DNA of 64,000 nucleotides from Dethiobacter alkaliphilus (GTDB lineage Bacteria > Bacillota > Dethiobacteria > DTU022 > UBA8154): assembly GCA_016841605.1 (NCBI GenBank), contig JAENYV010000001.1, positions 1-64,000 of the forward strand. Direction: 5' to 3'. Made by a program: the position numbers and the translations under genes. Below are positions 27,182-34,311 of this stretch, one piece after another (within the stretch, counting starts at the first letter, position 1; every line of letters starts with the position of its first letter). Under the pieces are notes generated by a model, which saw nothing but the letters and a program-made list of their open reading frames with translations, made no database searches and was not told the DNA's origin.

Positions 27182-27258
27182 CGGGGTGTGGCTCAGTTTG
27201 GTAGAGCGCTGCGTTCGGGACGCAGAGGTCGCTGGTTCGAATCCAGTCACTCCGACCA
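27182..27258 (+). tRNA. tRNA-Pro (anticodon CGG)
   Basis: 77 nt with encoded CCA. The acceptor stem CGGGGTG/CACTCCG has one G-T pair, the D arm GCTC/GAGC, the anticodon stem CTGCG/CGCAG with loop TTCGGGA, and the T arm has TTCGAAT. Reads CCG codons. Confidence 0.97.
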
Positions 27259-27295: not shown

Positions 27296-27486
27296 ACCCC
27301 ATTTTTAACCTCTCTTTTTTTACCCCTACTTAATCGATTTTAACCCCTTCCTGGAGCCAATTTCCCAACAAATAAGCATGTTTTTAGTTGTTTAAAATGC
27401 TATGTTGCTTTGTTTTCGATTCGAACACCATGTTCGTTTCTAAATTATTAATTGATATTGTTGTAATAGGGCAATTTTACAAGGAA

Positions 27487-27514
27487 TTGGGATAAATATG
27501 TCGAATTGTATACT
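27487..27514 (+). promoter_or_regulatory. Possible SigA promoter of the Sia-like operon
   Basis: TTGGGA, 16 bases, TATACT, about 50 bases before the first gene. Confidence 0.45.
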
Positions 27515-27566
27515 AAATGGATTAAACTAATAGATAATCGTTGTTTAATTAAATAGGGGAGGAGAA

Positions 27567-29441
27567 ATGCTCAAATTAAAGAACTTTTTTAAATCCTATA
27601 TTGGAAAAGATTCCATATCCGCTCTTGAGCATGATACCATCAAAATCGTCATTGCCGGCTGTATTGCGATCTTAGTAGCGCTGCTTGTTATGAGCATTAC
27701 AGGTATAGCTATAACTAGAAACGCAGTTGTTAATAGGCTAAAAACAATTGATTTAAAAAATATGGCCGGCGCCATAGCAGCCACGATAGATGCAAAGATT
27801 GAAAAGGCTGTGGATGCTTCACTGCTCCTCTCGTATGATCCCATGCTTTTACGCTGGGTTCTAAGCAACGACACGGATAAAGAATCCGGACAATTTGCCA
27901 AAAACAAACTGGGAGAACTGGTCGAACAATTCGGCTATGATACTGCCTTTTTAACTAGTGCGTTAACACATAATTACTGGTCGTATAAAGGAGAGGAGTT
28001 TAGGCTCCTTAATGTCGTTTCACCGGAAAATCCGGCTGATAGCTGGTTTTTTAAGACTCTTGACATGCAAAAGAAGTATATTATTAATATAGATCCAAAC
28101 GAGGTGCTACAGGAAACATTCGTTTGGATTAATGTTTTGGTGGGGGATCTATCCGATCCGGTTGCCGTAACGGGTGTGGGCTTGAACTTGAGTGAGCTTA
28201 TTAATGAACTGGTCCGGGAAGAAGCTAAATATGAACTAAAGAATGATATTTGGCTGGTAGACGGGGGAGGTTTTATCTATCTGTCAAAAAATAAAGATCA
28301 CCTGGAGCAGGCCTTGCGAGACTACCTTCCCCAGGATCTGACTGAAACAATTATGGAGCCCGGCAGTTTGGTCAATGAATTTGCCGTAGCGGAATATTAT
28401 AATAAAGAGGGAGAGCTTTTCGACGTTGTGTATAAAACTATCAAAGATACCGATTGGAAGTTGATTGTGCAAATACCCCGTTCGGAAAGCCTGGGTTTTC
28501 TTAATTCCATTATCATTAATACAGTTGTAGCCGGATTAAGTATAGTTATTTTTATGGTTGGTATGTTTAATTTCATTACCAAGAGAGTGGCAAATCCTTA
28601 TAAACGTACGCTTCAACTCAATCAGGAATTAGAAGAAAAAGTAAGAGAGCGGACCAGGGAACTTAATGAAAAGAACATTAAAATACAGGACAGCATTGAA
28701 TATGCCAAGCTTATTCAGGAGACGATACTTCCTTCCCGGGCTGAGCTTGGCACCGTCCTGCAAGATTTCTTCGTCATCTGGAAACCACGGGACATTGTGG
28801 GTGGCGACTTTTACTGGCTCAAAAAATTTGCTGACGGCTTCCTGCTGGTCATCGGCGACTGCACAGGACATGGAGTGCCGGGGGCCCTCATGACCATGGC
28901 TGTCCACTCCATGTTGAACCATATTGTTGAAGATGTCGGCCATAGGGACCCTGCAGCTATTTTAGAAGAACTTAATCGGCTCCTCAGCCAATCTTTTACC
29001 GGAAGCGAAAGCATAGAAAACATACGTCCCGGTTTGGATGCTGCTGTTTTGTTTGTTGCTAAAGATAAAAAAATCTTGTTTTCAGGGGCCAAATTGTCTC
29101 TGATTGTTTTAGAAGAACACAGCATAAAAGAAATTAAAGGAAACAAGGTTACACTGGACGGATTGGTCGGCAGGCAAAAACCCGGTCTAAGCAATTATGA
29201 AATAGAGTATGATAGGCAGAGGGCTTCGTTCTACCTGTTTACTGATGGTTTTACGGATCAGCCGGGAGGCGAAAGAGGTTTACCTTATGGTAAAAAAAGG
29301 CTTTTTTCAGAGCTTCAGGCGATCGGCAACCTTGCCATGAAACATCAGGAAACAGCGATACTCCAAACTTTCAAAAATTATACAGGAAATGAAATAATCC
29401 GTGATGATTTCACAATACTAGGGTTTTCCATTTGTAAGTAA
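27567..29441 (+). CDS. SiaA-like membrane PP2C phosphatase
   Basis: 624 residues. Membrane segments at about 26-49 and 311-334 enclose an extracellular Cache-like sensor. A coiled coil (about 345-385) leads to a SpoIIE/PP2C phosphatase domain with metal-binding Asp residues in VGGDFYW (about 411-417), GDCTGHGVPGALMT, TDGFTDQ and RDDFT. In Pseudomonas SiaA dephosphorylates the small regulator SiaC. The next three genes are SiaB-, SiaC- and SiaD-like in the same order, which identifies this protein. It differs from Pseudomonas SiaA in showing no clear HAMP. RBS GGGGAGGAG. Confidence 0.9.
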   Translation: MLKLKNFFKSYIGKDSISALEHDTIKIVIAGCIAILVALLVMSITGIAITRNAVVNRLKTIDLKNMAGAIAATIDAKIEKAVDASLLLSYDPMLLRWVLSNDTDKESGQFAKNKLGELVEQFGYDTAFLTSALTHNYWSYKGEEFRLLNVVSPENPADSWFFKTLDMQKKYIINIDPNEVLQETFVWINVLVGDLSDPVAVTGVGLNLSELINELVREEAKYELKNDIWLVDGGGFIYLSKNKDHLEQALRDYLPQDLTETIMEPGSLVNEFAVAEYYNKEGELFDVVYKTIKDTDWKLIVQIPRSESLGFLNSIIINTVVAGLSIVIFMVGMFNFITKRVANPYKRTLQLNQELEEKVRERTRELNEKNIKIQDSIEYAKLIQETILPSRAELGTVLQDFFVIWKPRDIVGGDFYWLKKFADGFLLVIGDCTGHGVPGALMTMAVHSMLNHIVEDVGHRDPAAILEELNRLLSQSFTGSESIENIRPGLDAAVLFVAKDKKILFSGAKLSLIVLEEHSIKEIKGNKVTLDGLVGRQKPGLSNYEIEYDRQRASFYLFTDGFTDQPGGERGLPYGKKRLFSELQAIGNLAMKHQETAILQTFKNYTGNEIIRDDFTILGFSICK

Positions 29442-29450
29442 AGGAGTTGA

Positions 29451-30014
29451 ATGTTTTTGGACGATTCACTTTACGCTCTTTATCAAGAGTTGAAGAAGAA
29501 AAAAATTCTTTTTTGCTACAGCGGACCTATTTCTCAGACAAGCCTTGAGGGGGTGGGAAACACCCTGCGTCGCAATCTTGAATATGAAGAAGCGGGGAAT
29601 AAGGCTACATTATCGGTTTTTTCCATTTTTGTCGAGCAGGTCCATAACATTTTAAACTATTCGGCAGAAAAGCTTGGTTATGGAGAAGACATTGATGAAG
29701 GGTTGCGTTTCGGCATCATTGTCATCGGTCGTGAAGAAAACGGAGATTATTATGTTTATTGTGGTAACCGGATTTATAATACGGATATACCGGTTCTCAT
29801 ATCTAAAATTGAAGAGGTAAGAAGGTTAAACAAGGATGAACTAAAGTCTTTATATAAAGAACGGCGTAAAATGGCTCCTGAAACAGGTCGCAAGGGTGCC
29901 GGACTTGGTTTGATCGAGATGGCGAGAAAATCAGGGAAGCCACTGGAGTATTCCTTCGTTACGATTAACGAAGAGTTTTCTTTTTTCAGCATTAAAGTTG
30001 TGGTGAGGAGGTAG
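29451..30014 (+). CDS. SiaB-like protein kinase
   Basis: 187 residues. HATPase-type fold without the usual His-kinase core: EQVHNILNYSAEK (N-box-like), YYVYCGNRIY, and RKGAGLGLIEMARKSG as the glycine-rich ATP lid, as in SiaB (DUF6272), which phosphorylates SiaC. It follows siaA by 9 bases. AAAGGAG is 4 bases before ATG 29451; TTG 29457 would be better spaced. Confidence 0.88.
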   Translation: MFLDDSLYALYQELKKKKILFCYSGPISQTSLEGVGNTLRRNLEYEEAGNKATLSVFSIFVEQVHNILNYSAEKLGYGEDIDEGLRFGIIVIGREENGDYYVYCGNRIYNTDIPVLISKIEEVRRLNKDELKSLYKERRKMAPETGRKGAGLGLIEMARKSGKPLEYSFVTINEEFSFFSIKVVVRR

Positions 30015-30021
30015 AATTAAT

Positions 30022-30399
30022 ATGCAAAATCTGCTTATTGAAAAAACAAATTCGACCCCTTATATCAATTTTAATGCAGTGTCAGGTGTTCTGCAAATTA
30101 AAGGGGAATCTTTCCCGGAAAATGCTGCCAAATTTTACAATCCGGTTATGGAATGGCTTCGAGAGTATCTGGACTGTACATCGGAACAGACCACACTCGA
30201 CTTTGAGATTGTTTATTTTAACAGCAGCACCTCCAAAATATTCATGACTATTTTTGATGTTCTTGATGAAGAGGTTAAAAACGGTAAAAAAATAGTGGTA
30301 AACTGGCGATGCGATGGGGAAAATGAAACAGCAATTGAGTGTGGGGAAGAATTTGAAGAAGACTTGAGGTATTTGCCTTTTAATATCATCCTGTTTTAA
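30022..30399 (+). CDS. SiaC-like regulatory phosphoprotein
   Basis: 125 residues, the full length of the SiaC (DUF1987) family: TPYINFNAVSGVLQIKGES, then YFNSSTSKIF with Thr70 in the place of the Thr phosphorylated in Pseudomonas SiaC, and VVNWRC. Unphosphorylated SiaC binds and activates the diguanylate cyclase SiaD, whose homologue is encoded next. GAGGAGG precedes ATG 30022. Confidence 0.92.
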   Translation: MQNLLIEKTNSTPYINFNAVSGVLQIKGESFPENAAKFYNPVMEWLREYLDCTSEQTTLDFEIVYFNSSTSKIFMTIFDVLDEEVKNGKKIVVNWRCDGENETAIECGEEFEEDLRYLPFNIILF

Positions 30400-30417
30400 G
30401 TTGAGGTATATCGTATA

Positions 30418-31131
30418 ATGGATAATATTTTCTCCAGAGAAGAACAGATAATATCCAGGGCTGAAGCGCTGCTAGGTACAAATTCGTTTCAATCGGCAAA
30501 GGATGCCTCCAATTATCGAGTTTTGCTGGATGAGTATAAAATATTGCTGCGCCAAATGATGAAAATAGTAAAGATGGCCGATAAAACACAACTTGATTTA
30601 AAGATTGTTTCAGAGAAGCTGAACCGTTTGTCGCACATTGATGTCTTGACGGGCCTTTACAACCGGAGATATTTTAATGAAGCCTATGTGAAGGAATGGA
30701 ACAGTGCCGTGCGTTCACAAAAAGAACTTGCCATTATTATGATCGATATTGATTATTTTAAAAAATATAATGATACTTACGGTCATCTACAGGGCGATGA
30801 ATGTTTAAAAGCAGTGGCAGATGTTATAAAAAAAGCTGTAAAAAGGCCCAGAGACCTTCTAGCACGTTTTGGCGGTGAAGAATTTGTAGTGCTCTTACCT
30901 GAAACAGGCCTTGAAGGTGCCGTCAGTGTGGCGCAGGATGTATTATTTCTTGTAAATGGGTTGGATATTGAGCATGCTGCCTCCCCCTTGCAAAAAAAAG
31001 TAACGGTATCTTTGGGAGTGGCCGCCACATTGCCCCAAAACAACCTGGCCAAGGAAGAACTTATTAACAACAGCGATAAAGCCCTTTATCTGGCCAAAAG
31101 CAGCGGCAGAAATTGTTACAAAGAATATTAA
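30418..31131 (+). CDS. SiaD-like diguanylate cyclase
   Basis: 237 residues: a helical N-terminal stretch (1-75) and a GGDEF domain with DVLTGLYNRRYF, IDIDYFKKYNDTYGH and the active-site loop RFGGEEF. RPRD five residues before GGEEF forms the inhibitory c-di-GMP site. It makes c-di-GMP from two GTP, presumably when bound by the SiaC-like protein. Last gene of the four-gene operon, 18 bases after the previous one. Confidence 0.93.
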   Translation: MDNIFSREEQIISRAEALLGTNSFQSAKDASNYRVLLDEYKILLRQMMKIVKMADKTQLDLKIVSEKLNRLSHIDVLTGLYNRRYFNEAYVKEWNSAVRSQKELAIIMIDIDYFKKYNDTYGHLQGDECLKAVADVIKKAVKRPRDLLARFGGEEFVVLLPETGLEGAVSVAQDVLFLVNGLDIEHAASPLQKKVTVSLGVAATLPQNNLAKEELINNSDKALYLAKSSGRNCYKEY

Positions 31132-32259: not shown

Positions 32260-33156
32260 GTGAAAAAGGTTATCAGTATTAGCCTGGGTTCGTCAAAGCG
32301 GGATCATTCAGCAGAAATAAATCTTATGGGGCAGGATTTTCTGGTCAGTCGCATTGGTACTGACGGGAATCTGGACAAAATGATTAAATTCATCCGGGAA
32401 AATGACGGGAAAGTGGATGCTTTCGGATTGGGGGGAATGGATCTCTATATTCAGGCCGTGGATCGGCGGTACTCGATTCGGGACGCAGAGAAGGTTGCAG
32501 CAGCAGCTCAAATTACTCCTATTGTGGACGGGTCAGGCCTAAAAAATACCCTGGAGCGCCGTGTGGTCCAGTACTTGCTCCAGGAAACCGATATTCTGAT
32601 GAAGAAAAAAAAGGCCCTCATTGTTAGTGCAATGGATCGTTGCGGCCTGGCGCAGAGCCTGGGAGAAGCGGGCTGTGAGATGGTTTATGGAGATGTGGCC
32701 TTTATTCTCAATATACCTATCCGGCTTAAATCACTGAAGACCCTTGCTTTTATTGCCCGTATGCTGGTTCCCATCATTCGTCGCCTTCCTTTTACGATGA
32801 TATATCCAACGGGGAAAAAGCAGGAAATCAGTAAGCCCAAGTTTCCCAGTTTTTTTCTGGATGCCGATCTTATTGCAGGGGATTTCCATTTTATCCGCCG
32901 CTATATGCCCGAAAGGTTACCGGGAAAGATTATTATCACCAATACTGTTACGAAGGATGATCTTTCCCTGCTCCGGGAAAAGGGTATTAAAACATTGATT
33001 ACGACTACCCCGGAGATCGAAGGACGTTCTTTTGGAACGAACGTTATGGAAGCATTGCTGGTAGCCTATACGGGAAGTAAAAGAGAATTAAAGGACGATG
33101 AATATTTACTTCTCTTAAAAGAGTTGGACTTTAAACCACGGATTGTGCAGTTCTAA
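32260..33156 (+). CDS. Conserved protein paired with the acyl-ACP reductase-like gene
   Basis: 298 residues, soluble. ISLGSSKRDHSAEI, VDAFGLGGMDLYI, IVDGSGLKNTLERR and TTTPEIEGRSFGTNVMEALL are the striking stretches. I believe close homologues are sometimes labelled quinate 5-dehydrogenase, but I see no Rossmann GxGxxG motif and would not accept that label. The constant pairing with the next gene suggests a joint function. GTG 32260, with AAGGATG 13 bases upstream. Confidence 0.7.
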   Translation: MKKVISISLGSSKRDHSAEINLMGQDFLVSRIGTDGNLDKMIKFIRENDGKVDAFGLGGMDLYIQAVDRRYSIRDAEKVAAAAQITPIVDGSGLKNTLERRVVQYLLQETDILMKKKKALIVSAMDRCGLAQSLGEAGCEMVYGDVAFILNIPIRLKSLKTLAFIARMLVPIIRRLPFTMIYPTGKKQEISKPKFPSFFLDADLIAGDFHFIRRYMPERLPGKIIITNTVTKDDLSLLREKGIKTLITTTPEIEGRSFGTNVMEALLVAYTGSKRELKDDEYLLLLKELDFKPRIVQF

Positions 33157-33213: not shown

Positions 33214-34311
33214 ATGGGACCTGTTGATTTTTCTTTTATCCTCCATCCCCTCAGTAATGAGGATATTTTCCGTAAACTTAGGTTTATGCGTAATTGGCCT
33301 TCTTCCCTGGTGGAAAGGACCATCCGCATGCTTCCTCCCGTGTGGACATCCCGAATTACCGGAGTTGCCTCACCCCACAACAGCGTAGAGGGATGTTTTA
33401 TGGGTGTTTTCCTAACCACCAAACAGATGCTTCAACTTCCTCCTGAAGTGGTTATGCGTAAAATTATTATTGCAGGAAAAAAAGCTGCCCGGGCCGGTGC
33501 AAAAATTGTCGGTCTTGGTGCGATGACCGCTGTCGTGGGAGACTCCGGCTTAACAATTGACCGCAACCTGGATATTGCTGTGACAACCGGAAACAGTTAT
33601 ACTGTCGCGACAGCACTGGAGGGGACGGAAAAAGCTGCCGCATTGATGGATATAGATTTGGACCGGGCTGAGGTGGCTATTTTGGGGGCAACCGGTTCTA
33701 TCGGCAGCACCTGCGCTCGTATTCTGGCAAGAAAGGTTAACTTCCTGACATTGATTGCCCGCAATACTCAGCGCTTGGAGAAACTGGCGGACAATATCCT
33801 TGATGAAACGGGACTGGCTGTTAAGGTTACTTCCGGAGTAAAAGAAGCGATCCGAAAGGCGGATATCGTTGTCGCTGTTTCAAGTTCGGCTGAGAGCCTG
33901 ATTGAACCGGAGGACCTCAAACCCGGGGCCATTGTCTGTGATGTGGCCAGGCCACGGGATGTTTCCGTAAAAGTGAGCGAAAAAAGGGACGATGTCCTGA
34001 TTATTGAGGGTGGAGTTGTCGAAGTCCCGGGAGATGTTAATTTTAATTTTAATTTTGGCTTTCCCACGGGGATGGCCTATGCCTGTATGGCTGAAACAAT
34101 GATTCTGGCTTTGGAACGGCGCTACGAAAGCTTCTCCCTGGGTAAGGAGATGACAGTGGAGCAGATCGACGAGATCAAGTCGTTAGCAACAAAGCATGGG
34201 TTTAAACTGGCCGGTTTTCGGAGTTTTGAGAAAGCACTTAGTATGGAGGATATAGAGATAATAAAAAAGAGGGCCAGGGCCAATCTTCCGGCATTTGTCG
34301 CGGCGAGATAG
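33214..34311 (+). CDS. Long-chain acyl-ACP reductase-like (AAR family) protein
   Basis: 365 residues. It has the layout of cyanobacterial acyl-ACP reductase: GAKIVGLGAMTAVVGDSG, VTTGNSYTVATAL, the NADPH site AILGATGSIGSTCARIL, ARNTQRL, and near the C-terminus AYACMAETMILALE followed by a stretch ending KHGFKLAGF. Cys291 in that segment falls where the catalytic Cys that carries the acyl group sits in the cyanobacterial enzyme. Firmicute members are often annotated as shikimate dehydrogenase. No aldehyde-deformylating oxygenase is nearby, so alkane formation is not implied. Start set by the hairpin arrangement just upstream. Confidence 0.75.
   Translation: MGPVDFSFILHPLSNEDIFRKLRFMRNWPSSLVERTIRMLPPVWTSRITGVASPHNSVEGCFMGVFLTTKQMLQLPPEVVMRKIIIAGKKAARAGAKIVGLGAMTAVVGDSGLTIDRNLDIAVTTGNSYTVATALEGTEKAAALMDIDLDRAEVAILGATGSIGSTCARILARKVNFLTLIARNTQRLEKLADNILDETGLAVKVTSGVKEAIRKADIVVAVSSSAESLIEPEDLKPGAIVCDVARPRDVSVKVSEKRDDVLIIEGGVVEVPGDVNFNFNFGFPTGMAYACMAETMILALERRYESFSLGKEMTVEQIDEIKSLATKHGFKLAGFRSFEKALSMEDIEIIKKRARANLPAFVAAR

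Follow-up and report, generated by a model that had tools for sequence, protein, structure and literature searches.

A SiaABCD-kind partner-switch locus in Dethiobacter alkaliphilus and the predicted SiaC-docking stalk of its diguanylate cyclase

Introduction

The Sia system of Pseudomonas aeruginosa, whose mechanism serves here as our model (PMC7647112, PMC8457831), couples a phosphatase (SiaA), a kinase (SiaB) and a phosphoprotein (SiaC) to a diguanylate cyclase (SiaD). The active-site residues of the SiaA PP2C domain are D457, D474, G477, D600, G601 and D653, and the phosphate of SiaC sits on T68 (PMC7647112), while SiaC grips the stalk of SiaD at two motifs, S50/Q54 and S82/Q86 (PMC8457831). 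Proteins of the SiaC family (DUF1987) are widespread, and in the HsbA/HsbD and BgrV/BgrR systems a STAS-like partner protein likewise controls a diguanylate cyclase (PMC8457831); the partner there is a classical STAS protein, unlike the PF09345 protein of the locus described below. This type of module is already known, and such genes are already named in databases. Our literature search, incomplete in coverage, returned work on the Sia module from P. aeruginosa alone. We know of no biochemistry on any Bacillota member of SiaABCD.

Results

The sia locus and its genomic setting

We analyzed a window of 64,000 nucleotides (the whole stretch of DNA under study) from Dethiobacter alkaliphilus. Four open reading frames lie in one direction on the plus strand (27567-31131), separated by gaps of just 9, 7 and 18 bases:

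27567..29441, plus strand: siaA-like gene, 624 aa, membrane PP2C/SpoIIE phosphatase with a dCache_1 sensor and a coiled-coil linker
29451..30014, plus strand: siaB-like gene, 187 aa, GHKL-type Ser/Thr kinase (DUF6272) with conserved E62 and N66
30022..30399, plus strand: siaC-like gene, 125 aa, STAS-fold phosphoprotein, matched by PF09345 and by its structural model
30418..31131, plus strand: siaD-like diguanylate cyclase gene, 237 aa, GGDEF domain with I-site
27487..27514, plus strand: candidate promoter upstream of siaA, a weak sigma-70-like consensus match and at most suggestive

The original prediction had read these genes, in order, as a PP2C phosphatase, a SiaB-like kinase, a SiaC-like protein and a GGEEF cyclase with an RxxD site, an assignment borne out by profiles, PDB relatives, catalytic residues and the SiaC model. 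It had placed the start at 27487, which is upstream DNA; the coding part begins at 27567. Its description of the system as complete and SiaABCD-type is correct as to which genes are present and in what order. All four proteins, though, score under the NCBI equivalog cut-offs (SiaA 302.6 of 700 bits, SiaB 142.2 of 225, SiaC 115.5 of 150 and SiaD 174.5 of 290) and the locus belongs to a clade apart from P. aeruginosa. It is a genuine relative of SiaABCD, matching far beyond chance, and not a close orthologue of the Pseudomonas version. The two share the A-B-C-D order, the PP2C phosphatase, the DUF6272 kinase, SiaC and a stalked GGDEF cyclase with an I-site, together with the catalytic residues and most contact residues. 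The window version differs in having Ser68 for Thr68, Ala at the position of S82 and no HAMP match in SiaA.

A tRNA-Pro (CGG) at 27182-27258 immediately precedes the sia genes; tRNA genes are common insertion points. This tRNA was the sole match in an Rfam search, so no known riboswitch accounts for the locus. About 130 bases upstream of siaA, at 27422-27436, is the palindrome CGAACAccaTGTTCG, which occurs once in the window (0.07 occurrences would be expected if up to two mismatches are allowed) and could be a regulator site; its spacing is wrong for a LexA box. On the downstream side, the product of 33214-34311 is a relative of acyl-ACP reductase and of the N-terminal region of PigE, scoring far under the equivalog cut-offs; it is preceded by a 298-aa protein (32260-33156) with no Pfam or NCBIfam match. 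At 4.07 Mb, the genome itself is larger than the other two available for the genus (2.1 and 2.4 Mb), and the sia genes may be part of a larger accessory fraction in it. Its Bacillota relatives and its Spo0A gene, the latter compatible with spore formation, make the host a candidate for the Gram-positive spore former of the earlier description.

Phyletic patterns and architectures

The distribution of the system in the phylum is patchy. SiaB and SiaC are each single-copy in the window genome, and SiaC is absent from 59 other genomes of its genus, family and order. It was found in 2 of the 98 genomes of the class, namely the window genome and one other, and scored above the cut-off in 10 of 398 genomes of the phylum, with another class showing it more commonly (17 of 83). 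The nearest relative (L016), from another family of the same class, has the same four genes, with no conserved neighbors beyond them within the stretches compared. In a tree of concatenated SiaB and SiaC, the window falls in a separate Bacillota clade (support 100) with L016 as its sister, whereas P. aeruginosa branches with Azospirillum, nearer a second Bacillota type. This tree is midpoint-rooted with several weak deep nodes and therefore does not separate transfer from loss.

In almost every Bacillota locus examined, the A, B and C genes adjoin a cyclase with a stalk; there are two main architectures. Class I has the order A-B-C-D with a short cyclase (the window, L003/L043, L004, L016 and L019). 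Class II has the order B-C-A-X or A-B-C-X, where the effector X is a protein of about 540 residues combining the stalk with GGDEF and HD-GYP domains. Class II loci share with the window SiaB, SiaC, a dCache-PP2C SiaA and a stalk-bearing effector, but differ in the nature of that effector, in mostly having Thr68 and in lying outside the window's clade. Among the variants, L025 shows the order A-D-B-C, and L023 has a PAS-histidine kinase in place of the cyclase. We also observed SiaB-SiaC pairs in Bacteroidota, on plasmids of Bernardetia (L060, 5419-6378) and Persicobacter (L064), neither with an adjacent cyclase match and the former also with no adjacent phosphatase match.

SiaB, SiaC and the phosphosite

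The window SiaB is recovered by the Pfam DUF6272 profile (1.8e-42) and by the NCBIfam model for SiaB family kinases (NF038262; 190.8 bits against a cut-off of 85), with 6kko_A as a PDB relative (6e-29), and its Glu-Asn kinase pair is E62 and N66. SiaC matches PF09345 (DUF1987) at 1.4e-43 (147.8 bits against a curated cut-off of 24.5) and 6kko_C at 4e-20. The profile check proposed for these two products is hence answered by a match in each case. The predicted SiaC model matches the P. aeruginosa SiaC structures 6kko, 7e6g and 6k4f, and no structures besides SiaC at E<0.001.

The phosphosite had been placed at Thr70, which the SiaC alignment rules out as off by two: Thr70 aligns with P. aeruginosa Ser70, and the residue aligned with T68 is Ser68.

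30223..30225, plus strand: Ser68 codon; this residue opens helix 2 and is the phosphosite predicted from an alignment of 36 SiaC proteins

All 36 proteins carry Ser or Thr at position 68, and the preceding N67 is invariant. Ser68 occurs in all class I Bacillota SiaC proteins, and in the window model it caps helix 2, which spans residues 68-86. By analogy with T68, Ser68 is the predicted phosphosite.

SiaA and its outer sensor

28836..29423, plus strand: PP2C (SpoIIE) phosphatase domain; Pfam 5e-17, 6k4e 1.5e-57
27753..28469, plus strand: dCache_1 sensor domain, SiaA residues 63-301; Pfam 6e-07, 29.7 bits, under the 45-bit cut-off

The closest solved relative of the phosphatase domain is P. aeruginosa SiaA-PP2C (6k4e), and the metal-site residues D414, D431, G434, D560, G561 and D613 correspond to D457, D474, G477, D600, G601 and D653 of that protein. 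Transmembrane segments, read by eye, lie near residues 27-50 and 313-336. The prediction of a Cache-like outer sensor with no clear HAMP is upheld on both counts: the dCache_1 match, though under its cut-off, is accompanied by a fold match to 8bmv, and no HAMP was matched by Pfam at E<=0.1. HAMP is present in the SiaA of two other loci (L019 and L023). Since the predicted SiaA model has a mean pLDDT of 50, the outer domain alone was interpreted.

By sequence, this sensor is closest to McpH (8e-12), with uric acid as its ligand, and Htc10, with guanine and hypoxanthine as ligands; the top Foldseek matches of its model are purine-binding dCache domains. These dCache_1PU sensors are the closest solved relatives, and the pocket Y, W and N are kept. 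The variants listed in PMC11245519 give a five-residue motif, Y-[KR]-W-F-[DN], with Lys or Arg in second place, from which the Y-N-W-W-N of the window SiaA departs both there and in having W for F. Across all SiaA proteins compared, the second position is N, D, G, E or Q and never Lys or Arg. We accordingly do not propose purine sensing, despite the nearest structures being purine sensors, and the amino-acid ligands of dCache domains look unlikely as judged by eye.

SiaD and its predicted docking stalk

30418..30615, plus strand: SiaC-docking stalk of SiaD, residues 1-66, from profile comparison with the stalks of other effectors
30574..30591, plus strand: docking core M53-A54-D55-K56-T57-Q58, aligned with P. 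aeruginosa SiaD I81-S82-D83-R84-Y85-Q86
30844..30855, plus strand: RxxD inhibitory site, RPRD, SiaD residues 143-146, five residues before GGEEF
30871..30885, plus strand: GGEEF active-site motif, SiaD residues 152-156

The GGDEF domain is matched by Pfam at 3.3e-51, and its closest structures are WspR-type GGDEF domains, with SiaD (7e6g) also matched. Compared against the published contact list (PMC8457831), the SiaC-SiaD contacts of P. aeruginosa are largely kept on both sides (SiaC Y65, N67, S69, M75, D79, E110 and D114; SiaD K49, K52, D55, K56 and Q58). An exception is S82, which contacts the phosphosite residue and corresponds to Ala54 in the window; L016 also has Ala here and the remaining class I loci have Ser. 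Where P. aeruginosa SiaD has two docking motifs (S50/Q54, S82/Q86), the window SiaD has one: a second SiaC-binding motif was not found in it, and the single MADKTQ at 53-58 aligns with the second P. aeruginosa motif. One motif suggests a 2:2 complex, with two SiaC per SiaD dimer rather than four, though this stoichiometry is a guess.

The stalk on other effectors

Profile comparison identifies the SiaD and X-protein stalks as homologues along some 65 columns, with a probability of 97.6% and a score of 67.0. A merely fortuitous resemblance between helical stalks was rejected: 100 column permutations gave at best 17.2, and the SiaA coiled-coil linker, used as a control, 13.4 and 18.6. In the X proteins the Gln is one residue nearer the Asp than in SiaD, and the contact with SiaC may therefore differ in detail. 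A stalk profile run against the window genome picked out SiaD as the sole match, even at E<=1. Across the 398 phylum genomes it picked out exactly the ten with SiaC over the cut-off, part of which had supplied the profile (G129, G184, G411 and G428 had not). Based on this homology and co-occurrence, the stalk probably binds SiaC.

In three genomes belonging to a single genus, the stalk is also found on soluble histidine kinases coded divergently from the adjoining sia genes:

L018, 5517-6542: stalk-bearing soluble histidine kinase beside an OmpR-type response regulator, divergent from the sia genes
L021, 5487-6497: the same arrangement
L045, 9709-10767: the same arrangement

Further, a histidine kinase of Azospirillum lipoferum 4B, coded between siaC and the cyclase, bears it. 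The PAS-HisKA-HATPase kinase beside siaC in the SiaABC set of L023 (7115-8284) is a separate observation: that locus has no stalk match and no stalk-bearing effector beside SiaABC. We consider it probable that SiaC serves as a general clip, holding a portable N-terminal stalk of about 65 residues, carried by cyclases, GGDEF-HD-GYP proteins and histidine kinases in Bacillota and Azospirillum, such that one Ser/Thr switch would drive both c-di-GMP and two-component signaling; the window would then present its simplest form, with one motif and a 2:2 complex. In the literature searched, incomplete in coverage, no description of a portable stalk was found, especially on histidine kinases.

Proposed mechanism and alternative explanations

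The gene set, the folds, the catalytic residues and the docking stalk are shown by the analysis, and the central reading of the original prediction, a Cache-type outer sensor and a partner switch acting on a diguanylate cyclase, is well supported. We are strongly inclined to regard the locus as a SiaABCD-kind module, a partner switch relaying a signal to c-di-GMP. In the proposed mechanism, SiaB would phosphorylate SiaC at Ser68 and so keep it away from the cyclase. A signal from outside, read at the dCache domain of SiaA, would alter the coiled-coil linker and switch on the PP2C domain, which would strip the phosphate from Ser68. Dephosphorylated SiaC would then bind the single MADKTQ motif on the helical stalk of SiaD, clamping two SiaD chains together and stabilizing the dimer for c-di-GMP synthesis, which the RxxD site would end by feedback. 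The direction of the switch, the role of Ser68 and activation by SiaC are inferred from P. aeruginosa, while any proposal for the sensor ligand or the biological output would be a guess. The genome has 16 further GGDEF matches and two PilZ matches; thus, a c-di-GMP network exists to take up the signal.

What limits our confidence in the SiaABCD reading is that all four proteins are below the equivalog cut-offs and that Ala54 replaces S82. SiaC might act on other or additional targets, with SiaD one of several outputs, as could be envisaged from the relatives in which histidine kinases and GGDEF-HD-GYP proteins coded next to sia genes bear the stalk, and from those 16 other GGDEF matches. We hold this to be unlikely, as the restriction of the stalk match to SiaD in this genome makes SiaD look like a dedicated partner. 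That the locus is instead an Rsb/SpoIIA-like switch acting on a sigma factor, in which the cyclase would be a mere bystander, is very improbable: the matched families, PF09345 and DUF6272, are those of SiaC and SiaB, the SiaC model matches SiaC structures alone, and the adjacent cyclase bears the docking stalk, even though SiaB and SiaC share general folds with the SpoIIAB/SpoIIAA kind (PMC7647112 for SiaC) and the host carries Spo0A. Finally, the patchy distribution and the Ala at the S82 position might be taken as signs of a degenerate or non-functional copy, but we give this hardly any credence, given four intact and tightly spaced frames with the catalytic residues and conserved sites kept, and the retention of the same gene set by L016 in another family of the class. 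The preferred reading remains the SiaABCD-kind module.

Conclusions

The analysis documents a separate Bacillota lineage of the SiaABCD switch and corrects the residue for testing. Nothing is overturned by the sia locus of the window; the proposed portable stalk is the part worth following. The comparison pinpoints the SiaC-docking element of the cyclase and places histidine kinases among the new targets predicted for SiaC, whereby the idea, put forward in PMC8457831, of DUF1987 proteins as modulators of adjacent proteins becomes directly testable.
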